This document shows positions 1,715 to 62,266 of a stretch of 64,000 nt of DNA, one piece after another (positions within the stretch are counted from its first letter, which is position 1; each line of letters starts with the position of its first letter). Below the pieces are notes generated by a model. It ran no database searches. It was not told where the DNA came from and worked only from the letters and a program-made list of their open reading frames with translations. The translations under genes and the position numbers were made by a program. This stretch comes from Branchinecta lynchi (taxonomy: Eukaryota > Arthropoda > Branchiopoda > Anostraca > Branchinectidae), in the NCBI GenBank assembly GCA_023053575.1, contig JAKZAP010000016.1, forward strand, positions 18,680,030 to 18,744,029, in the 5' to 3' direction.

Positions 1715-1852
1715 CTTGTTATGGCACTTGAGCTTACTCAAGTGCCATGTTGCGATGGTAATGTCTGTCGGTCTGTCCGCATTTTGCTAGTTTGGGCACT
1801 TCCATATGACGTAGTACGATAAAACGGGGCACGCATATCAGGGACCCAACCG
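1715..1852 (+). repeat. Family C repeat, left half, interrupted by the LINE
   Basis: It holds 'ggcacttgagcttactcaagtgcc' (an inverted pair), 'tgtctgtcggtctgtccg' and 'cgcatatcagggacccaacc'. The last block matches family C copies near 27220 and 27385, where it runs on into 'cctgg.cagaatcagtttcc.gatccgatcatc'. Here that continuation resumes only at about 6465, on the far side of the LINE, so the LINE inserted into this repeat. Confidence 0.65.
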
Positions 1853-1880
1853 GATTAGATTAGATTAGATTAGATTAGAT
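1853..1880 (-). repeat. LINE 3' terminal pentanucleotide tail
   Basis: On the plus strand this is GATTA repeated about five times, then 'aattttattttacacatg'. On the element's strand it is a (TCTAA)n tail directly after the 3' UTR. LINEs of several clades end in such short repeats rather than poly(A). The same tail and UTR start occur at 23664-23690. Confidence 0.8.
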
Positions 1881-2085
1881 TAAATTTTATTTTACACATG
1901 TATACAAAACATTTTACAGCACCTGCTAAGAAAGCCCCAGAGGGTTTGTTGGCCGCAGGTGGCAGTCTTCTCTATTCTACATAATGTGGTAACATTATTT
2001 TTACATTATTCTAAATGCCATTCATACACGGTTCACACATATACAACAAACATTCTGCTTACAAAAAACACTCACGCATCAATTA

Positions 2086-5000
2086 CTATTCTTTTGCAAG
2101 GAAAAATCTCTTCGCTGTAGCCTTGAAGGATGCCAGATGACTCGAGTTTCTAATTTCAACTGGAATTATATCCCATACAGAGGGGGCAAAATTTCTAATC
2201 ACGAAAGAAGCTCTAGTCGTGTTTCTAAATGGGTGTACCACATTTGATGCCCCTCGTGTATCATGACTATGGAGATCACTATTAATGGAGAAAAAATTTT
2301 CAAAAGAGGAGGGAAGTATATTATTGAGAAATTTATATGTGAAAATACTAACTTGATAATCTCTAGTTTTTGAAATATCAAGTAGTTGATTCTTAATGTA
2401 AAGTTCATTAATATTAGGAGTAACTAAAGTTTTAGGTGACAAAATTTTAACGGCTTTATTTTGGATTTTTTGGATTTTTTTATAACATGACACAAAATTA
2501 CTTGCCCATATAGAGCAACCATAGCAAATGTACGGGTAAAAAATAGCGAAATAAAGCAATCGAAGAATTTTCTGTGAGACTAGGTTTTTAACTCGGCGAA
2601 GCACTCCCAGGGTCCTTGACAATTTTGAAGCTATAATATTTGAATGTGTTTTCCATGATAGATTTTCATCAATCATAAAACCCAGGTACTTTGTTACCTT
2701 TACTCTTTTTATTTGATTTCCGTTTACTATTAATTCTAAATTAGTGTCAATACTAGATATCCGAGAAAATAAAATGTAATTAGTTTTGGTATAATTTAAT
2801 GTCAAAAGATTGAAATCTGCCCACTCAACGAACTCGGTCAATGCTTTTCTCATTTTATCAAAAAGTAGATCAGCTGATGGAGCAGCTACAAGTAAAAGAG
2901 TATCGTCTGCAAAAAGGATTATACCAGCCTCTGACAAATAATACTTAATCCGATCTATAAAAATTAAAAATAAAAGGGGACCTAGTATAGACCCCTGGGG
3001 AACTCCGCAAGTTATCTCACTAGCAACAGAAGTAAAACACCCATTCATCACAATTTGCTTCCGGTCACTCAAATAAGATTCAAACCATGACAAACTCTTT
3101 CCAGTCACACCGATTTTTTCCAGCTCAAGTAATAACTGTTTATGGTCAATCGTGTCAAACGCCTTCTTCAAATCCAGGAATAAAGCAGCTGGAATCAGAC
3201 CCGCTTCAAACGCCGTATTTACCCAGTCAACAAGTTTAATAGTCGCCATCTCAGTTGACATTTTTTTCCTGAAACCAAACTGAGTATTTATAAGAATTTT
3301 ATTATTTTCAACGTAATCAGTTAGCCTGGATCCTATCACCTTTTCATATATTTTTGAAAAAAAAGGGAGGATAGAAATGGGTCTTTTGTTTGAAGGGTCA
3401 TCTCTCTTACCTCCTTTATGCAATGGTATTATTTTAGCGACCTTCAAACCTTCTGGGAAAATCCCTTTTTCCATGGATTTATTAATCAATTTAGATAAAA
3501 TTGGTGTTATAACTGGTTTAACTGATTTAGCAATCTTAAGAGAAATCCCATCTACACCACTTGAATTTGATTGCATTCCACTGATAATTTTTCCAACTTC
3601 ATTTGTATCGCAAGCATTAAAAACCAACTGACAATCTACTGGAACTTCTGGCTGAACTATTTTGGGAGCCCGGTTAATTCTTTTCCGAGCATCATCACAT
3701 AGTTTCGCGCCCTCACTAGAAAAATATTCACATAAATAATTTGCGACATCCTTTGGGGTGGTCAAATTCCCCCTCTCTGTTTCTAATTTATTAATAACTT
3801 CTATTTTACCCTTTTGTCCCAGGAGTGAATTTACCGTTTTCCATGTTTTTTTCATATCACATTTATGCTTCATAAATTCATCTTGCAAATACATTTTTTC
3901 AGCTTTCCGTTTCAATCTGTTTAAAGTATTCCGGTAATTTTTAAATTGCTGAAAATTAATGACAGATGGTTCACCTAAGTATATTTTATACAATTCATTT
4001 TTCCGACTTATAGAATTTAGAATACCCTGAGTAATCCATGGTTTCTTTGGGAATTTCGTACTACCCCTTTTAAGTCTCCTAAGAGGGCACGTCTCATTCA
4101 ATACGTTTGTAAACATAGCGACAAAAACATCATACGCAACCGACGGGTTGTCTTCTTCAAATACCGGAGTAAAATCTGTGTCACCCATTTCTTTCTCAAA
4201 TTTTTTCAAATTATCTTTTCTTAAATCACGAAAGAATGTTTTATTTATTTGATCATCCTTATTTATAATCCCGTAAGATTTTTTTATTTTACTAAGAAGA
4301 AAAAAATGGTCAGATCCATCCGTAAGTAAAACATCAGCATATGAACATTCAAGCAGCTTTCCATCCACAAATATATTATCGATCAGCGTCGCAGACTTAT
4401 CAGTCACTCGTGTAGGAATTGTTACCAGGGGGTATTGGAAAGAAGAAATCATTGAATTAAGAAAATCTTGACGGCTTGAACTTTTAAGGAGGTCAATATT
4501 GAAATCCCCCATAACTACTTTATATTTATGATCATTATTCAATTTCTCCATTAAAGTCTCCATCTCCTCAATAAAAGTTTCCTCATTATATGACGGTGTT
4601 TTATATACTAAACCAACAACTATATTTTTATCAGATTTATCTTCTATTTCAATAAAAAGAGTCTCAAGCCTTCCTTCAAGCCACAGCGAGAGATCCTCCC
4701 TTACCCAATATGAAACTCCTTCCTTTACCAATAAAGCCAAACCGCCTCGCTCCATAACCTGTCGTTCTTTTCTTTCACTGATATATCCTGGAAACTGGAA
4801 ATCCCAGGCTGAATAATTATCCCTATTCGACACAAACGTCTCACATAGCCCTATTACTAACGGTGTTTCTTGCATATCACTTAATATGTTACACAGGGTA
4901 GGGTACGCTGTTCTAAGGCCTTGGCAGTTCCAAAATGCAAAAACAATATCATCTTTGCCTGACCATTTCTTCAGCGACTGATTATCAACATAATTACTTG

Positions 5001-5124
5001 CTTTCATAGCTTGCGTATTATTTCCTTCACTTAAATTATCGTTTGCAATGGGGGTAGATAACAACTGGTGAACAGACAGCCGATTACTTTCTAAATATGA
5101 GAGTCTGCTGGTCGAACTATTCAT
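2086..5124 (-). CDS. LINE ORF2: endonuclease-reverse transcriptase
   Basis: A 1012-aa open frame from a true ATG at 5124. The endonuclease/exonuclease/phosphatase-type domain spans about residues 58-280. Its catalytic landmarks are WNCQG (N66), CET (E95), GDFN (D207, N209), IDNIF (D249, N250) and SDH (D272, H273). A linker (about 290-480) follows, then the reverse transcriptase (about 545-800): RPISILPFFSKIYEKVI, FLDLKKAFDT (D651), GVPQGSILGPLLF and FADD (738-741). The tail (about 800-1012) matches the conserved C-terminal part of CR1/Jockey-like ORF2 proteins, with no obvious zinc knuckle. The enzyme nicks target DNA and primes cDNA synthesis from its own RNA. All catalytic residues are present with no frameshift. 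ORF1 ends 154 bases upstream, so both are presumably translated from one RNA. Confidence 0.95.
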   Translation of the reverse strand: MNSSTSRLSYLESNRLSVHQLLSTPIANDNLSEGNNTQAMKASNYVDNQSLKKWSGKDDIVFAFWNCQGLRTAYPTLCNILSDMQETPLVIGLCETFVSNRDNYSAWDFQFPGYISERKERQVMERGGLALLVKEGVSYWVREDLSLWLEGRLETLFIEIEDKSDKNIVVGLVYKTPSYNEETFIEEMETLMEKLNNDHKYKVVMGDFNIDLLKSSSRQDFLNSMISSFQYPLVTIPTRVTDKSATLIDNIFVDGKLLECSYADVLLTDGSDHFFLLSKIKKSYGIINKDDQINKTFFRDLRKDNLKKFEKEMGDTDFTPVFEEDNPSVAYDVFVAMFTNVLNETCPLRRLKRGSTKFPKKPWITQGILNSISRKNELYKIYLGEPSVINFQQFKNYRNTLNRLKRKAEKMYLQDEFMKHKCDMKKTWKTVNSLLGQKGKIEVINKLETERGNLTTPKDVANYLCEYFSSEGAKLCDDARKRINRAPKIVQPEVPVDCQLVFNACDTNEVGKIISGMQSNSSGVDGISLKIAKSVKPVITPILSKLINKSMEKGIFPEGLKVAKIIPLHKGGKRDDPSNKRPISILPFFSKIYEKVIGSRLTDYVENNKILINTQFGFRKKMSTEMATIKLVDWVNTAFEAGLIPAALFLDLKKAFDTIDHKQLLLELEKIGVTGKSLSWFESYLSDRKQIVMNGCFTSVASEITCGVPQGSILGPLLFLIFIDRIKYYLSEAGIILFADDTLLLVAAPSADLLFDKMRKALTEFVEWADFNLLTLNYTKTNYILFSRISSIDTNLELIVNGNQIKRVKVTKYLGFMIDENLSWKTHSNIIASKLSRTLGVLRRVKNLVSQKILRLLYFAIFYPYICYGCSIWASNFVSCYKKIQKIQNKAVKILSPKTLVTPNINELYIKNQLLDISKTRDYQVSIFTYKFLNNILPSSFENFFSINSDLHSHDTRGASNVVHPFRNTTRASFVIRNFAPSVWDIIPVEIRNSSHLASFKATAKRFFLAKE

Positions 5125-5278
5125 GATAACACTCTAATACACTCAAGAATGAGAACTCTTTGATATCTCAAGCACGAAACAAACAGAAAAATTAAGGACA
5201 AAAAATTAAGGAAACAAAACCGACAATTCCAAATAAGCAAAAAAAATGAAGATGAACTCAACGTATCATTAAAATGGT

Positions 5279-6298
5279 TTACTGTTCACTGATCAAGTCA
5301 TTCAGTGACCTAATTTTCAAGATGGCTGAGCTGTTTTCCGGTTTGGCTAGAATGCGGCCACCATCAGTCCACACATTCCTAACTCCAAATTTGTCACGTG
5401 CCATATTCAGCAGTTGTTTACGCTTTGGCGTTAAATATTCAGATATGAATACTTTCGATCGGGCCAGTTTCTTCTTGTTCGTGAACACGAGTTTTGCACA
5501 ATCGGATGAATGAAAAGTGACAAGAACAGGCGGGAGAAGAGTATCCGCTGGACTAACTCGAGTGCGTAAGCGCTCAGTTGACTTGATATCAGTAGCAAGC
5601 ATACTGATCCCCATCTTAGTACTGAAGAGCTCTAGGACGCTATTGGGCAGCGTTTCTCCACCTATCTGAGACAGTCCGTGGACTAGAAGAACATTCGATC
5701 TTCTTTCCTGTTCCAAATCGTCGTTGCGGTATTCCAGACTCTCGATGCGGTTTTCCAGCGCCGTAATTTGAGCGTGAAACCCCTTGAGCATTTTTTCCAC
5801 GCTTGCAAATTTTGCACTGTAGTCGAGGCTGATCGCATCATATATCTGAGTGACAATAGTGTTAATTGCTTGTTCATTGATCACGCTTTTGTCCCCTGCA
5901 CATTTCTCAATCACCTGTTTGTGAATATCCTGACGAAGATTTTCTTTCAATTTGGCAATTTCGCTCTGCGCGTTTACAAGGGTAGACGAGAGTGAAGATA
6001 CACTGCTTGTCGAGGCAGCACCAGCGATTCCCATTATTTCTTGATACACATCTGGGAATGTGGCAAGTTCAGTGAATGCACCTTGAACTCCTTTTGTTTT
6101 TTTCTTTGAAGCTTCGGCGAAATTCTCTTGGAAAGGCAAAATGAATCCCTCACTCAGTGATGCTTTTTCGTGTGATCCATAGCAAAATACTTGATAAGAT
6201 TTCCCCTTCTTCGATGCAGTTATACCAACTACTCGGACTGGCCATAAAGGATAGCCGTAGAATTTGCCAAACGCAACGTCATTAATACTGTAGGACAT
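5279..6298 (-). CDS. LINE ORF1 with N-terminal PWWP domain
   Basis: 339 aa from the first ATG (6298); the frame also extends upstream from a TTG at 6355, which is unlikely as a start. Residues about 5-78 read as a PWWP domain of HDGF/LEDGF type: FGKFYGYPLWPVRV (P17-L18-W19-P20), then SYQVFCYGSHE and ILPFQENFAE. PWWP domains of this group bind nucleosomes with H3K36 methylation. By comparison with LEDGF, two aromatic-cage positions are filled (F13, W19) while the third appears to be Cys39, so methyl-lysine binding may be altered. Residues about 159-200 form a coiled coil (ITALENRIESLE). Residues about 201-330 resemble the RNA-binding region of LINE ORF1 proteins (RRSNVLLVHGL, later VFISEYLTPKRKQLL and NVWTDGGRI). 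Expected role: RNA-binding nucleoprotein of the retrotransposon, possibly tethering it to chromatin. The PWWP assignment is by eye but extends over the whole domain. Confidence 0.88.
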   Translation of the reverse strand: MSYSINDVAFGKFYGYPLWPVRVVGITASKKGKSYQVFCYGSHEKASLSEGFILPFQENFAEASKKKTKGVQGAFTELATFPDVYQEIMGIAGAASTSSVSSLSSTLVNAQSEIAKLKENLRQDIHKQVIEKCAGDKSVINEQAINTIVTQIYDAISLDYSAKFASVEKMLKGFHAQITALENRIESLEYRNDDLEQERRSNVLLVHGLSQIGGETLPNSVLELFSTKMGISMLATDIKSTERLRTRVSPADTLLPPVLVTFHSSDCAKLVFTNKKKLARSKVFISEYLTPKRKQLLNMARDKFGVRNVWTDGGRILAKPENSSAILKIRSLNDLISEQ

Positions 6299-6304
6299 CG
6301 CAAG

Positions 6305-6413
6305 CTCGATAATGTCTAATTTCCTGACGCAAACAGGTTTTACACAGCACTGCAAACTCGATAATGTCTAATTTCCTGACGAGAACCCGTCAAACAAGTT
6401 TTACACAGCACGA
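6305..6413 (-). repeat. Tandem duplication in LINE 5' UTR
   Basis: Two copies of 'ctcgataatgtctaatttcc...ttttacacagcac' lie head to tail at 6305-6356 and 6357-6413, just upstream of the ORF1 ATG. The first overlaps the first codons of the TTG-extended frame. Tandem 5' units are known promoter-bearing structures in some LINEs; a promoter role here is only a guess. Confidence 0.6.
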
Positions 6414-6464
6414 TTTTAGTGACCTTCTCTCGTTGAGTGCCCGAGAATGACTGAATGACTGATT

Positions 6465-13757: not shown

Positions 13758-13919
13758 ATTTATAGTATTCTATATATATTTGTAAGTATTATTTATTGTA
13801 AACTTAACAACGCGGGTATTTGTGGAAATGCACTAGCTAATAAAATCTTATTTGTCGGATAGAAAACAAGTAGTTATTCTAGATACTGACTCGTCTGATG
13901 ATTTATCGCAATCAAGAAC

Positions 13920-14900
13920 AGTAGGAGGTACTTGGTCGGTACTTGGACCATTACTGTTCTTGATATATATTAATGATTTGAGTGTTTGTACGGGTGAATC
14001 TTATTAAATACTCAGTTTGCCGATGACACCGCAGCAACGCTATCGGCTACGGACGAACATGCTATGGTATTAAATCTGAAGACTACATTTTGCCGACTAT
14101 TTGAATGGATGTCTGATAATAAATTAGCTTTAAACAAGAAAAAGACAAAATTTTTAATTTATAGTAGAACTGGATGTAAGTTTGACAGTGTGAGGAAAGT
14201 AGAAATAGAATCAGGTGAAGGTGTAATTGTTTTTGAGTGACCTGAATCTATTCGTTATTTGGGTGTCGTTTTCGACCAGAATCTGTCATGGAAAAAGCAC
14301 ATTAATTTGGTTAGGACTAAGGCTTCTCGTGGTATTGAACTTATGTTTAGACTTAAGCATCTTCTCCCGTATTCAGCTCTGAGATCCCTTTATTTTTCTT
14401 TGGTTCATTGGCATTTTGGCTATGCGTCAATAATATATCTTAATACTATAATAAGTCATATCATATAATAATAAGTCATATCAAACCTATTCAAATCATA
14501 CGGAATAAAGCGTTGCGCGTTTTGAAATTGTTTCTTCCAGCCCCGTCCAAGTTCCCCAATAAAACTTCAACCGAGACCCTGTTTACACTACATAATATTC
14601 TTCCAGTAAGAAGTGCAATGCAATATTTAGTAATACTTTTTAAAATTCGATCATTGCTACCCGAATACTTTTCGTCAATGAATCTTTTGTGTCTTTCTGA
14701 TTCTTCTCAGATTTAAACGAGATCCAAAAAAAAATTACGAATACCTCGAGTTGTTACCGAAAGGTCCAGGTTCTGCCTTCGGTATCTCATTCCTCTTCAC
14801 TGGGAGAGTGTCAAGTTAATATGGATTTAAAGGTAGGAATAGCTGCTATAAAATCACGGCTTAGAAGAATGCTGATCGAGAATTACAGAAGTTAGGTAAG
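13920..14900 (+). pseudogene. Degenerate LINE reverse transcriptase, C-terminal half
   Basis: RT fragments are readable across frames: VLGPLLFLIYINDL at about 13940, then after a stop and a frameshift QFADDTAAT, LALNKKKTKFLIY, SIRYLGVVFDQNLSWKKHI, PIQIIRNKALRVL and near 14745 LRIPRVVTERSRF. This order fits RT palm motifs B-C, thumb and C-terminal tail of CR1/L2-like ORF2. The endonuclease and the N-terminal half of the RT are absent, as in a 5'-truncated insertion. It has several stops and at least one frameshift and cannot be functional. Confidence 0.8.
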
Positions 14901-18199: not shown

Positions 18200-18968
18200 T
18201 TTTTTGGGATCCCAAAACGTAAGTGGAGGGATACCTAAGACATCGCAAAAGTTGTCCGTCCGTCCGTCCGTCCGTGTGTAAGCACGATAACTCTAGAAGG
18301 GAATGAGATATTTTGATGAAACTTGGTGTGAGGATTCGTTGGGTCGTCGGACCAGTCAAGTTCGTAGATGGGCTTTGTAGCCCTACATTTAGGGGTGGGG
18401 GAGGGGGTTCAAATTAAGGGGCAAACAAAATATTTTGAAACAGCTAATGTGATAGTCGATTATGGGGTAAGAAGACATGCTGAACACGATGGTGAAAAAC
18501 ATTTTGTCATCGGACAAGTAGTTTGCCCGGAATCCGTCCGAAGCCGCAAAGTTTGTTAAAAGTAAAAGTTTTGTTTGAAGTTGATTAGATATTCGATTTA
18601 GGGGTAGGAAGATATGCTGAAGACGATGGTGAAAACCATTTTCTTGACGGACAAGTATTTCTCCCGGAATCCGGCCCAAACCGGAAAGTTTGTTAAAATT
18701 AAATTTTGTATTTGGAGTTGATTAGATGTTCGACTCAGGGCAAGAAGACGTGCTGAGCACTTATGTGAAAACAATTTTCTACCCGGACATGTAGTTCGCC
18801 CGGAATCCGGCCAAAACCGGAAAGTTGTTAGAAGTTAAAATTTTATTTCTGGTTGATTAGATAACCGATTTAGGGGTAAGAAGAGATGCTGAATCCGTGT
18901 GTAATAATCATGTTTTACCCGAACATATAGTTCGACCGGAATCCGGCTGGAGTCGGAAAATTATGCCA
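18200..18968 (+). repeat. Family A interspersed repeat, 3'-truncated
   Basis: Starts with TTTTTTGGGATCCCAAAACG, then 'acatcgcaaaagttgtccgt', a (CCGT)n run, 'agatgggctttgtagcccta' and four ~137-bp subunits. It lacks the 'ggtcttgtt' end and stops where family C begins at about 18970. The 60-codon frame here recurs at 44040 and, reversed, at 1327-1524, because of repeat identity. Confidence 0.75.
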
Positions 18969-20960: not shown

Positions 20961-22262
20961 AGAACAAGACCAAGGGTTTTGATGGATCCACAAAATTTAA
21001 CATTTGATCCAGACAATTTCCGACCTCGCCAGACTCCTTGAACATTTTTAACATTAATATTTAGAAACAGATTGAGTCTAATGACTAATCGTCTGAGAAA
21101 AAACAAGTTTGGATTTGGATTCAACATGTGTGTTTACCCGTCTACGTCATAACTACTTTGAGACGAAACTGATAAAACAAAAACTTCGGATTCCGGGCGA
21201 ACTACTTATCCGGGAAAACTAAAACTCAAACGTGAATCCAGCATATCTCCTTACCCGTATATTGAACTTCTAACCAACTAACCAATTTTCAAATACGGAT
21301 TCAGCATGCCTCCTTACTACTACATCGAACCTCTAACTAATTTCGGTTATGAAACTTTTACTTATATACAAATTTCCCAGTTTCAGCCAGATTCCTGACG
21401 AACTATATGTCCGGGTAGAAAATGATTGTCATATATGGATTCAGCATGTCTTCTTACCCATAAATCGAACATTTCATCATCTTCAGATAAAACTTTTACT
21501 TTTAGCAAATATTCCGGCTTTGGCCGGATTCCGGGTGAAATACTTCCCCGGCAAAAAAAAATGGTTTACATACTAGTGTTCAGCGTGTCTTCTTACACCT
21601 GAATCGAACATCTAATCAACTTAAAATAAAACTTTTACTTTTAACAAACTTTCCGGTTTTGGCCGGATTCCGGAAGAACTGCTTGTCAGGCGAGAAAATA
21701 GTTTTCATCGTGTTCAGCATGTCTTCTTACCCCTAAATCGACCATCTCATTAGCTGTTAGATGTTCGCCCCTTAGTCTGAACCCCCTCCCAGCCCCTCAA
21801 TGTAGAGCTACAGAGCCCATCTACGAACTCGATCTGTCCCTTGACCCAAAGACCTCTCACACCAAGTTTCATCAACATATCTCACTCTCTTCGAGAGTTA
21901 TCATGCTTACAGACGGACAGACAGACGGACGGACAGACGGACTACTTTTACGAAGTCCAGAGCAAAATAACTCTAGAGAGTACCGCGAAGACCTATCCTT
22001 CCCATGCACCGAAAATGGGCCTCCGTCGCTTTGCTCGCATGCAGTGGCGGGCGTAGATTCTACCCAGCGCTCGTTAACGATTGGCCAGAGCAAAATAATT
22101 CTGCTCTGCGATTGGTTGAGTTTCGGTAGGGATGTTCGTGTCCGCTAGTGGAGCTAGTGTTGCTGCGATTTGACTGTGTGTCACTTTTTCAAAGTTCGCG
22201 CAAATTCTTTTGCTCTGACGAAGTCATAGGTATCCCTCCACTTCCGTTTTGGGATCCAAAAA
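20961..22262 (-). repeat. Family A interspersed repeat carrying a nested MITE
   Basis: Left end 'agaacaagaccaagggtttt', six or so ~137-bp subunits, the 'gagagttatcatgcttacag' block and (GACGGACA)n. The sequence is split at 'ttacgaagtc' by the family B MITE (21958-22217), then resumes 'acgaagtcataggtatccct' and ends at the GGGATCC palindrome. Confidence 0.8.
21958..22217 (+). mobile_element. Family B hAT-like MITE nested in family A
   Basis: 260 bp. Ends are CAGAGCAAAATAACTC and 'ttcttttgctctg'. Exact 8-bp target duplication acgaagtc at 21950-21957 and 22218-22225. The internal sequence keeps 'gattggttgagtttcggtag' and 'gctagtgttgctgcgatttg' from family B. A second 'cagagcaaaataattctgct' block lies at 22086, so it may itself be rearranged. 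Confidence 0.9.
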
Positions 22263-23663: not shown

Positions 23664-24000
23664 TCTCTGATTAGATTAGATTAGATTTTTTTTAGATGAA
23701 ATTTTATTTTACACATGTACACGAAACATTTTGCAGCATCTGCTAAGAAAGCCCCAAAGGGCTTGTTGGCCGCAGGTGGCGTTCTTCTCTATTCTACATA
23801 TTGTGGTAAGACTATTTTTACATTATTCTACATGCCATTCGTTCACGGCTCATACATATACAACAAACATTCTGCTTACAAAAAACACTCGCGCATCATT
23901 ACTATCCTTTTGCAAGGAAAAATCTCTTCGCTGTAACCTTGAAGGATGACAGATGACTCGTGTTTCTAATTTCAACTGGAATTATATCAGATACAGAGGG
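23664..24000 (-). mobile_element. 5'-truncated copy of the PWWP LINE
   Basis: Begins with GATTA repeats (some changed to T-runs), then 3' UTR and the last ~35 codons of ORF2, aligned to 1853-2185. Shared landmarks are 'ttattttacacatgta', 'gccgcaggtggc' and 'aaggaaaaatctcttcgctg'. The match stops abruptly at 'atacagaggg' (24000). It differs from the full-length copy by scattered substitutions. It confirms the 3' end of the family. Confidence 0.9.
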
Positions 24001-40269: not shown

Positions 40270-40545
40270 ATAATATAGATGGCACTTCACACAAGGGACT
40301 TGTACCGTGACCAATACCATAAAGAATTTTTTCGAATATAATTTAGAAGTCTAGGGCTCCCTTGTCGGAGCCACTTAGACAAACCAGAAGGCCGGCTTCT
40401 ACCAGACTATTGTAGTGGTTTGCGAACTCGGTTCACAAGCCCCTCGGTAGCTCAGTTGGTAGAGCGTCTGTCTTGTAAACAGAGAGCCTTGGTTCAAATC
40501 CCGGCTGAGGAGCATTTTTGTCTATCAGTTCACTACTTATAAATA
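40270..40545 (+). mobile_element. tRNA-derived SINE, longest copy
   Basis: The tRNA-like part is 40439-40514, with A box TAGCTCAGTTGGTAGAGC, anticodon loop CTTGTAA (TGT, threonine-like) and B box GGTTCAAATCC. The acceptor and T stems carry mismatches, and the conserved tail 'gagcatttttgtctatcagt' plus 'tcactacttataaa' follows, as in copies at 38330, 56205 and 59715, so this is a SINE rather than a working tRNA gene. The upstream part (40270-40438) is shared with 38440-38520. The 'PGFEPRL'-like reverse frame is the usual translation of a B box. Confidence 0.8.
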
Positions 40546-43888: not shown

Positions 43889-45049
43889 TTTTTGGGATCC
43901 AAAAACGTAACCTATGACATCGCAAAAGTTGTCCGTCTGTCCGTCCGTCCGTCTGTAAGCACGATAACTCTCGAAGGAAATGAGATATTTTGTTGAATTT
44001 TGGTGTGAGGTTGGGTCGTCGGACCAGTCGAGTTCGTAGATGGGCTTTGTAGCCCTACATTTAGGGGTGGGGGAGGGGGTTCAAATTAAGGGGCAAACAA
44101 AATCTTTTGAAACAGCTAATGTGATGGTCGATTATGGGGTAAGAAGACAAGCTGAGCACGATGGTGAAAACCATTTTGTCATCGGAAGAGTAGTTCGCCC
44201 GGAATCCGGCCAAAACCGGAAAGTTTGTTAAAAGTAAAAGTTTTATTTGAAGTTGATTAGATGTTCGATTTAAGGGTAGGAAGACATGCTGAAGACGATG
44301 GTGAAAACCATTTTCTCGACGGACAAGTAGTTCGCCCGGAATCCGGCCGAACCCGGAAAGTTTGTTAAAATTAAAAGTTTTATTTCGAGTTGGTTAGATG
44401 TTCGATTTAGGGTAAGAAGACATGCTGAACACTTATGTGAAAACAATTTTCTACCCGGACATGTAGTTCGCCCGGAATCCGGCGAAAACCGGAAAGTTGG
44501 TTAAAAGTAAAAGTTTAATTTGAAGTTGATTAAATGTGTGATTTATGGGTAAATAGACATGCCGAAAACGATGGTGAAAATCATTTTCTCGCCGGAAAAC
44601 TAGTTCGCCCGGAATCCGGCCAAACCAGGAAAATTTGTTCAAGCAAAAGTTCGATTAGATGACAGATTAAGGGGTAAGAAGAGAGGCTGAGTCGGTATAT
44701 GACAATGGTTTTTTACCCGGACATATAATTATTCCGGAATCAGGTTGTAACCGGATTTTTTTTCAAGTCAAACTTTTATTCAAAGTTTATTAGATATTCT
44801 TTATAGGGATAAGGAGATACGCTGGTTTTGTTTCTGTATTTTTGTTTGTTTGCTGGACTAGTAGTTCGCTCGGAAATCGGCAGGAAGTCTCGGTCACTAT
44901 CGTCAAAATAGATGTGGCTTATAGAGGTATATCTGAACTTGGTTTTCTCTGATGATTAGCCTGTCCAAGACTGGATCTGGCGAAGACAAGACTCGATTGT
45001 CTGAATCTAATATTAGATTTTGGGATCCCATCGACACCTTTGGTCTTGT
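43889..45049 (+). repeat. Family A interspersed repeat, complete copy
   Basis: Best copy in plus orientation: TTTTTGGGATCC..AAACG, 'catcgcaaaagttgtccgtc' with (CCGT)n, 'agcacgataactctcgaagg', 'agatgggctttgtagcccta', then subunits whose 'cgcccggaatccggc' blocks start at 44196, 44333, 44469 and 44606 (137-bp period), and the end 'ttgggatcccatcgacacct' plus 'ttggtcttgtt'. No ORF spans it, so it is non-coding. Confidence 0.85.
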
Positions 45050-49489: not shown

Positions 49490-51112
49490 CTACCCACCTG
49501 GGAAACCAAAAAGATTGGAATTGATCTTATCCCAGATGGGTAATGATAACTGCATAAATGGGGTACTCACTCCCTCGATAAGACTATTACCGCAATAATT
49601 ATGTACAACCCGAAGTCTAATGGATTCCCGGCTCCTGCGAACTACCTCCGCAAAATCAGGCAGTGTAGCGTAGTGTTGGGCGATATTTGGATTTTTCGAT
49701 ATATCGATATTTTCACTTTCGATATATCGATATTTTCACTTTCGATATTCGATAATCGATATATCGATATCGATATTTCTTTAGTATGTTTCGCTATAGG
49801 ATACGTCTCGTTTCGCCAAAATTTACTAACGAAATTGTCGTTAAATACCATCTTGCATCATCTCAAACTCTGAATAAATAAGAACTGAATTACGAAAACA
49901 TATTGCTCCAATTTCGGATATATAAATGTAGGTTATGTTGGATTATTACAATAATTATGAATGAAAAAATATCGTTTTCGATATCGATATTTACTTTTCC
50001 ATATTCGATATCGATATTTGGTCCGATAGATCGATATATCGTTATCGATATCGAATATCGCCCAACACTAGTGTAGCGTCAGAAAACATTTCTGTTGCGC
50101 TACACCAAGATGGCAGCGAATTTAGGAGACGGAACGAATTATTGTAACACACACATATTGTAGTCAATGCATTGACTGTATGTGACGAGATCATTCCAAC
50201 ACCGTACAGACAAGTACAGTAACTTCGAAACAGAAGATTCTTAACCTCAGTAGAGCTCGTCTGCACTGAGATCTGTACAAGTGTTTAAGGTGACAATCAT
50301 CACTAAGATCGCTTGAGAATATGAACCCTAGGTACATAAATTTATCCACAAAACTAACAACATTTCCTGACAAAAATACCTGGGGCGGTTTTATTTTCCG
50401 CAGACTTTTCGGGCGAAATAACATGCAGAAAGTTGTTGACGTATTATAAATAATATCATACTGATGGGCGAATTCATCACAAATCGCTAGCAGTTTAGTT
50501 AAAGCTGACACACTTGTGGCTAGTAGAACTAGATCATCTGAAAAACTTAGGTTATTGTAACAAACTCGTCCAATATGGCAACCAAATCCTGACGCTTTTA
50601 GACGAAGGTTTAGCTCATCTATATAAAATGTATACAAGTACGCAGACAATACACCTCCCTGACGTACTCCGTTTTGCATGGAAAAAAGACTCACTGTAAA
50701 TATCTCCCCAACGAATCTTGAATTTTTGGGTTGTGAACCAATGAATAAGAAGATTCACATAATGATAGGGGACACCTCTTGCCAACAATTTCTTTATCAA
50801 AATTTCATGGTTAACTCTGTCGAAAGCTTTTCGGGAGTCAATGAAACACGCAAATACATAAGTATTCAAATTCCAGTAATATTCTATGACACACTTCATG
50901 ATGAAGATAGGAAATTCAACGGAAAGTCGACGTTTATAAGCAAACTGATGCTCGGACGTTTTTAAAAATTCCCTCAACCGAAAAAGTAAACAAGACTCTA
51001 ATACCTTGGAGAGTGTGGACGCCAGCGATCGGTCGGTAATTATCTGAAGACGTAGAATTCCCATTTTTACTTTTACAAATAGGGACTAGGATAACTTCCA
51101 TTAGCGACTCCG
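49490..51112 (-). pseudogene. Decayed LINE ORF2 split by a hAT-like MITE
   Basis: From 51112 down: VILVPICKSKNGNSTSSDNYR, (shift) LASTLSKVLESCL, FIDSRKAFDRVNHEILIKKLL (catalytic D), (shift) NGVRQGGVLSAYLYTFYIDEL, NNLSFSDDLVLLA (FSDD in place of the usual YADD/FADD), (shift) VKNLLFRSYCTCLYG and YNNSFRLLNSLPS to MFSDAT. After the MITE (49671-50070) the frame resumes PDFAEVVRRSRESIRLR and ends ...LPIWDKINSNLFGF, stop 49490. At least three frameshifts, no endonuclease. It is a different LINE clade from the PWWP element. Confidence 0.85.
49671..50070. mobile_element. hAT-like MITE with GATATC-rich ends
   Basis: 400 bp, ends TAGTGTTGGGCGATATTTGG and 'cgaatatcgcccaacacta', many 'atcgatatcgatat' palindromes near both ends. 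Exact 8-bp duplication gtgtagcg at 49663-49670 and 50071-50078. It sits in the C-terminal coding part of the LINE fossil. No transposase. Confidence 0.92.
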
Positions 51113-59714: not shown

Positions 59715-59822
59715 TATAAGTAGCGAATTCTGAAAGACAAAAGTGCTCTTCCGGCGGGATTTGAACCCACGACCTTTGGCGTAAAAGGTCACTGCTCTAA
59801 CACTGAGCTACGGAAGGGCTTA
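59715..59822 (-). mobile_element. tRNA-derived SINE
   Basis: The reverse strand begins 'agcccttccgtagctcagtg' (A box), has B box GGTTCAAATCC, then 'gccggaagagcacttttgtc' and 'tttcagaattcgctacttat'. The anticodon arm does not form a normal 5-bp stem with a 7-base loop, so it is not a functional tRNA gene. Confidence 0.75.
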
Positions 59823-61614: not shown

Positions 61615-62266
61615 TTCTTCCTCTATATCGAACATCTAATCAACTTCAAATAAAAATTTAACTAATAACAAATTTTTCGGTTCCAGACGGATTCCGGACG
61701 AACTATATGTCCAGGTAAAAAATGGGTGTCACATACGGATTCAGCTCGTCTTACCCTAAAGCGGGAACGTACTAAAAAACAAAACAAAAAACTTTTACTT
61801 TTAACAAACTTTCCGGTTTGGCCGGATTCCGGAAGAACTACTAGTCCGGGTAGAAAATGATTTTCACAAAAGTGTTCAGCATTTTCTAACCCCTAAATCG
61901 AACAGCTAATAAACATCAAATACAAATTTTACTTTTAACAAACTTTCCGATTTTTGCCGGAATCCGGACGAACTACTTGTCCGGCGAGAAAAGGGTTTTC
62001 ATCATCGTGTTCAGCATGTCTCCTTACCCCATAATCGACTATCAGATTAGCTATTTAAAAATATGTTGTTTGCCCTTAATTTGAACCCCCACCCCTAAAT
62101 CTAGGGGTACAGAGCCCATCTACGATCTCGACCTTTCACTTGACCCAAACGATCCTTCCACCAACCTTGATCCAAATATCTCATTACCTTCGAGAGTTAT
62201 CGTGCTTACAGACGGACAACTTTTGCGATGCCATAGGTATCCACTTACGTTTTGGGATCCCAAAAA
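61615..62266 (-). repeat. Family A interspersed repeat, left-truncated
   Basis: Four subunits ('ccggattccggacgaactat' etc.), 'gagcccatctacgatctcga', 'gagagttatcgtgcttacag' and the end 'ttacgttttgggatccc'. Confidence 0.8.

Follow-up and report, generated by a model that had tools for sequence, protein, structure and literature searches.

Chromatin readers serve integrating elements in settings that are already familiar: LEDGF tethers lentiviral integrase, and LTR retrotransposons with chromodomains exist. Among LINEs, L1-type ORF1 proteins (ORF1p) form trimers that coat RNA, and the known LINE systems contain ORF1p in abundance; L1 is not known to carry a PWWP domain. The nearest described counterparts of the element reported here are the type IIC ORF1s, which bear a PHD domain at the N-terminus of a coiled coil-RRM-CTD (CC-RRM-CTD) protein and occur in L2 subgroup 6 and CR1 subgroup 5 (PMC4120745). 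Metcalfe and Casane (2014) described the PHD as possibly involved in targeting and the evolution of ORF1 as reticulate (PMC4120745); the term "PWWP" has no occurrence in the main text of this survey of 448 elements. The LINE of Branchinecta lynchi shares with type IIC an N-terminal reader on an L1-like CC-RRM-CTD ORF1, the APE-RT type of LINE, and a reticulate ORF1 history, but it has a PWWP domain where type IIC has a PHD zinc finger.

The element is located in a 64,000-nucleotide stretch of contig JAKZAP010000016.1 (assembly GCA_023053575.1), which was analyzed at its full length and is called the window below. The parts of this copy, which belongs to a family designated A, are listed in Table 1. 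A plus-strand reading of 5279..6298 was ruled out by its many stops. Within the 5' UTR, a stretch of 35 nt is imperfectly repeated in direct orientation (6300-6334 and 6352-6386). At the end of the 3' UTR (minus strand), two short hairpins directly precede the (TAATC)n tail, with a minimum free energy of -14.9 kcal/mol, calculated without a shuffled control; comparable hairpins occur in LINEs for which their own 3' end is required.

Table 1. Parts of the LINE copy in the window (positions of the window) and location of the family J copy elsewhere in the genome
Feature	Position	Strand	Basis
Full-length LINE copy, family A, about 4.6 kb	1852..6455	-	Pairwise alignment with 6 other copies
5' UTR, ~155 nt	6299..6455	-	
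ORF1, 339 aa	5279..6298	-	
PWWP domain, ORF1 residues 1-86	6041..6298	-	Pfam, PDB, fold, alignment
Coiled coil, ORF1 residues 100-199	5702..6001	-	Predicted model: long helices 100-133 and 142-199
RRM-like region, ORF1 residues ~201-288	5435..5698	-	Fold match to L1 ORF1p 2yko
CTD, ORF1 residues ~289-336	5291..5434	-	Pfam Baculo_FP_2nd 290-335, E 8e-7, and fold
ORF1-ORF2 spacer, 154 nt	5125..5278	-	
ORF2, 1012 aa, apurinic-type endonuclease and reverse transcriptase	2086..5124	-	Pfam
3' UTR with terminal (TAATC)n tail	1852..2085	-	
LINE family J copy L027	G000:C20:12165900-12175800		

Several other features were recorded in the window. Five tandem arrays with units of 135 to 139 bp (888-1436, 18451-18947, 21440-21750, 44123-44651, and 61623-62021) appear, from inspection of their consensus, to form one minisatellite family, and the distance between one of them and the LINE copy, at its 3' end, is approximately 400 bp. 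A short 3' piece of ORF2 at 23908-24000 (minus strand) derives from the same LINE family or a close one (87% identity over 31 residues), and the pieces at 13840-14812 (plus strand) and 50194-51085 (minus strand) are broken reverse transcriptases from other LINE families, with roughly 24 to 46% identity to the ORF2s studied here. Genes for tRNA-Thr(tgt) and tRNA-Lys(ttt) are located at 40441-40513 (plus strand) and 59745-59817 (minus strand), respectively. Two stretches at about 41 to 44 kb and 47 to 49 kb have CpG o/e values of 0.29 to 0.58, compared with a window median of 0.90, and are possibly methylated gene stretches.

The first-pass annotation, made from the letters of the window, had described an HDGF/LEDGF-type PWWP domain at the start of ORF1, a coiled coil and a LINE-type RNA-binding region behind it, and an intact endonuclease-reverse transcriptase ORF2 154 bases downstream, and each of these assignments was borne out. 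The N-terminus of ORF1 scores 30 bits against the Pfam PWWP profile (PF00855; curated cut-off, 25.6), and the assignment agrees across profile, sequence match to PDB entries, and predicted fold, a five-stranded barrel with helices resembling HDGF and HRP in the model; profile and structure searches, either of which might have come back without a PWWP hit, thus both returned one. In the alignment, the family A protein has F13, Y16, W19, and C39 at the cage positions and a basic loop, KKKTKG, at residues 65 to 70. When further ORF1 families of the same genome were scanned, five of six (L050, L056, L054, L024, and L021) exceeded the PWWP cut-off, and L028 came to lie just under it (24.0 bits). 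The model of residues 156 to 339 matches the fold of human L1 ORF1p (type II; PDB 2yko, 2ykq) with coiled coil, RRM, and CTD all present, while sequence identity is only about 12%. From this modeled fold, trimer formation and RNA chaperone activity would be expected, as in type II proteins. The architecture is thus that of an HDGF-type PWWP domain joined in frame to the N-terminus of an L1-like CC-RRM-CTD ORF1, with the CC-RRM-CTD part recognized by model and by the Pfam CTD match.

ORF2 combines an APE endonuclease (PF03372, exonuclease/endonuclease/phosphatase type; E 8.7e-10) with a reverse transcriptase (PF00078; E 9.3e-32). Elements of the CR1/L2 lineages end in short tandem units in place of poly(A), and such units were found here as well, i.e., (TAATC)n in families A and B and AATTG units in families C and J; poly(A) is absent from the 3' end of the family A copy. 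No clear target-site duplication was seen in the seven family A copies inspected. These seven copies, including that of the window, are mutually 98.8 to 99.9% identical in pairwise alignments, and for the six others both the start and the end of the alignment agree to a few bases, with an internal deletion in one copy. Both ORFs are present in a single open frame in 11 of 21 copies examined, which together with the near-identity of the copies indicates recent activity of the family. We regard the element as a recently active LINE of the APE type, which within the Jockey superfamily probably belongs to the CR1/L2 side.

The fusion is widespread in the genome. At least 134 matches to ORF1 were obtained in the 576-Mb assembly, with 119 of 544 candidates scored, and 44 sequences, drawn from public proteins as well as this genome, were reduced to 32 LINE PWWP types with less than 85% mutual identity, 19 of which belong to this genome, a few of them being fragments. 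Of 46 ORF2 matches, 45 were checked and 40 have a near-complete 5' end; using 54 of the 134 ORF1 rows, an ORF1 match was located no more than 1.5 kb upstream in 31 of these 40, and in 25 of the 31 it begins within residues 1 to 14 and thus covers the PWWP domain. The remaining nine lack an ORF1 row within this distance on the same 54 rows; one of them (C6:12469791) has such a row about 1.7 kb away, and another (C9:4729100) has a short ORF1 piece. A genome search with PF00855 yielded 115 matches, and 20 of them, chosen as unlike the known copies, were fetched and judged by translation to comprise 15 LINE ORF1s and 5 host-type exons. Since 11 of the 21 copies have both ORFs open and the family A copies are nearly identical, the fusion resides in mobile elements and does not represent one lucky join. 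Mean pairwise identity among 11 families (55 pairs) is 45% for the PWWP domain, 44% for the CTD, 40% for the RRM, and 38% for the coiled coil. Between families A and B, pN amounts to 0.21 for the PWWP domain and 0.27 for the remaining ORF1 at a saturated pS of 0.85 to 0.86; within family A, the changes are too few to judge selection. Judged from these alignments, the PWWP domain is under purifying selection.

The pocket of the domain was compared with characterized PWWP proteins, HRP3 positions being placed on the LINE alignment by motif and residue numbering. HDGF, the HRPs, LEDGF, and Drosophila JASPer have the PWWP fold, sequence, N-terminal position, and cage Tyr/Trp in common with the LINE proteins, but they are host genes, and LEDGF and JASPer contain an IBD. 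The Drosophila protein of PDB entry 6kco, LD23804p ("Shuguo"), is presumably JASPer. The cage of HRP3 is formed by Tyr22, Trp25, and Phe48 together with Met19, and dsDNA is contacted via Lys18 and a basic loop (PMC6547440); in JASPer, Y23 and W26 are required for specific binding of H3K36me3, which is abolished by Y23A combined with W26A (PMC6877644). By our placing, Y23 and W26 of JASPer would correspond to Tyr16 and Trp19 of the LINE protein, and Lys18 of HRP3 to Lys12. Residue 19 is Trp in all 32 LINE types and residue 16 is Tyr in 30, otherwise Phe. Residue 39, at the place of HRP3 Phe48, is Cys in 29 types and Trp, Thr, and Met in one each, hence never Phe and non-aromatic in 31 of 32, the lone Trp being that of an Artemia protein; Phe occupies this position in HDGF, the Drosophila chain, and three host exons. 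Residue 13, the Met place of HRP3 and HDGF, is Phe in 30 of the 32 types. At these two pocket places, HDGF therefore has Met and Phe and the 6kco chain Val and Phe, as opposed to Phe and Cys in the LINEs. Residue 12 is basic in 23 of 32 types (Lys in 18, Arg in 5), and in the related types I_L026, P0005, P0008, and P0010 the basic loop is mostly missing.

The canonical HDGF cage is consequently incomplete in the LINEs, because none of the 32 types examined has a complete aromatic cage that includes the Phe48 equivalent, while Tyr and Trp are kept. As the two most needed residues are conserved, another residue forms one of the walls, and an aromatic one occupies the Met position, we read the pocket as re-tuned; a weakened pocket is equally possible from the residues seen. 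The exchange of Met for Phe and of Phe for Cys may have changed the strength or the specificity of the pocket.

Regarding the origin of the domain, a tree calculated with the linker included places the LINE PWWPs in one group with support of 97/93, which joins HDGF and the Drosophila chain 6kco at 92/77; this tree contained only seven non-LINE rows, was midpoint rooted, and left out four near-copies or fragments. With the PWWP domain alone and host rows L042 and L044 left out, the group is recovered at 94/90, and when the cage columns F13 and C39 are also dropped, it appears in only 36% of bootstrap trees. A single origin of the LINE PWWP is thus likely but not secure, one capture from an HDGF-like gene would be the simplest reading, and the most divergent rows, L050 and L051, could have a separate origin.

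A connection to the PHD-bearing proteins was provided by P0028, an ORF1 from a public contig, which we assigned to type IIC from its domain content alone. It has an N-terminal PHD-like finger at residues 7 to 59 (E 6.1e-5, 23.4 bits; cut-off, 24), and its C-terminal half aligns with the A1 profile over 174 columns (hhalign probability 97.8, E 9.9e-13), by which the C-terminal half of the PWWP ORF1 is homologous to that of a PHD-bearing ORF1. Because this C-terminal half is already known from an ORF1 type in which it follows a PHD, we regard the PWWP element as the result of a reader swap and not as a new kind of element, a wording that sets no direction, as PHD to PWWP and PWWP to PHD both fit. 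The Pfam scan, in which most matches above E 0.1 were filtered, listed no PHD in the ORF1 of the window, which has the PWWP instead. A search of this genome with P0028 (130 of 343 candidates scored) gave at least 64 matches and no PHD version among them, all 64 starting at residue 109 or later. Exchange between ORF1 and ORF2 was indicated by family J, whose ORF2 (L027) is 81% identical to that of family C (L018), whereas its ORF1 groups with those of K and H (53% and 50% identity) and is only 40% identical to that of C. An assembly fault is an unlikely cause of this pairing, because a second J copy, L049, repeats the junction with 98.7% identity over 853 nt spanning ORF1 and ORF2. The two ORFs can change partners, which fits the reticulate evolution described in PMC4120745.

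Relatives were also found outside this genome. The Artemia franciscana protein P0013 (NCBI, 200 aa), annotated as "PC4 and SFRS1-interacting protein-like," matches one LINE ORF1 of this genome at 67% identity over 127 residues and is likely a transposon fragment annotated as a host protein; a second A. franciscana entry, P0029 (NCBI), holds a related LINE ORF1 piece. At least one "PSIP1-like" protein at NCBI, namely P0013, thus looks like a piece of a PWWP-LINE, which calls for caution by annotators. Among 37 pattern matches in viral contigs, no relatives were present.

As the most likely explanation, which we hold with moderate confidence, the PWWP domain would tether the ribonucleoprotein particle (RNP) to chromatin before the ORF2 nick and target-primed reverse transcription. 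Because trimers of ORF1p would coat the element RNA, many PWWP heads would be displayed on each RNP, and they would bind nucleosomes with a basic DNA-binding face and the Tyr/Trp pocket. In favor of this explanation are the near-invariant Tyr16 and Trp19, the mostly basic residue 12, and the PHD that type IIC ORF1s and P0028 carry in the equivalent slot. Against it stand the incomplete cage, the reduced basic loop of one related group, the lack of enrichment in CpG-poor flanks, and the description of PWWP domains as weak binders of methyl-lysine (PMC3119473); on the RNP, weak single contacts would add up. The target mark would most likely be a methylated lysine, e.g., H3K36me2/3, and the tether function would be the likely reason for retention of the domain. 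Mark-specific reading of H3K36 methylation by the LINE PWWP is less certain than tethering, and in view of the altered pocket we consider it possible but doubtful.

The main rival explanation holds that the domain is a general binder of nucleic acids (minor-groove DNA or RNA, nuclear retention) without preference for a histone mark. Binding of dsDNA by the HRP3 PWWP (PMC6547440), the title of the 6kco entry, which names a PWWP complex with ssDNA, and the loss of the cage Phe all speak in its favor; against it, Tyr16 and Trp19 are steadier than the basic loop, which is mostly lost in one related group, and on balance we think it rather unlikely. More improbable is a role in which the domain contacts other proteins or interferes with chromatin factors of the host, i.e., the kin of HDGF, LEDGF, and JASPer, such as keeping element chromatin transcribed, with no choice of site. 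The abundance of ORF1p would suit such a role. Moreover, telomeric non-LTR retrotransposons of Drosophila are expressed with the support of the JASPer-JIL-1 complex, which binds via the PWWP of JASPer (PMC6877644), but the models display no LEDGF/IBD-like part, the remaining ORF1 being CC-RRM-CTD. A host exon or single chance fusion beside an unrelated ORF1, the artifact against which the first-pass annotation had warned, has nothing in its favor save the possible separate origin of L050 and L051, and it is ruled out by the genome matches, the open-frame copies, the 19 types of this genome, and the relatives outside it.

With respect to site choice under the tethering explanation, the first-pass annotation had inferred a chromatin reader, of a kind that binds H3K36-methylated nucleosomes, that could steer the RNP to transcribed chromatin. 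CpG content was compared between the 42 flanks of 21 copies and 96 background windows of 1 kb, of which 20 fixed positions supplied 40 and the window supplied 56. Each flank was placed at a set distance from the ORFs, the end being estimated for copies with broken ORF2. Median CpG o/e was 0.89 for the flanks, 0.79 for the random positions, and 0.92 for the window, with no significant difference in this weak proxy (Mann-Whitney p 0.12 for flanks against random and 0.65 against both backgrounds). Values below 0.6, which indicate methylated gene bodies only weakly, were found in 2 of 42 flanks and 11 of 96 background windows (5/40 and 6/56; Fisher p 0.34). The inference thus found no confirmation, either in the pocket, with Cys for Phe48 in most types, or in an enrichment of CpG-poor flanks for the 21 copies; steering to transcribed chromatin is a plausible hypothesis.

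No report of a LINE ORF1 with a PWWP domain was found among the open journal papers listed in the searches; a Dnmt3c paper mentioning PWWP and ORF1p was judged unrelated from its title and the start of its abstract. The idea shared with LEDGF in lentiviruses and with chromodomain LTR retrotransposons is that a chromatin reader guides integration, but in those systems either the host supplies the reader as a protein of its own or integrase contains it, while in the LINE it is part of the RNA-binding protein and guidance is proposed. The description of the locus as an undescribed system was too strong, given that PHD-bearing type IIC ORF1s are known and targeting has been suggested for them (PMC4120745); what stands is the PWWP in the N-terminal slot of ORF1, and the novelty is its presence where known relatives carry a PHD.

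In its fullest form, our tentative scenario is that a long-lived active LINE group, shared by this animal and the brine shrimp Artemia, once swapped the PHD of its ORF1 for an HDGF-type PWWP and rebuilt the pocket (Phe-Tyr-Trp-Cys), and that the heads of trimeric ORF1p tether the RNP to chosen chromatin, which would amount to a self-contained LEDGF-like tethering and to one instance of a general rule of exchangeable chromatin-reader modules in LINE ORF1s. The choice of chromatin by APE-type LINEs is a largely open question, which a nucleosome reader within the RNA-binding protein makes testable. Retained by many separate families, the PWWP domain may help these LINEs to choose or hold landing sites, and the PWWP- and PHD-bearing ORF1s together suggest that chromatin readers can be swapped at the N-terminus of ORF1.
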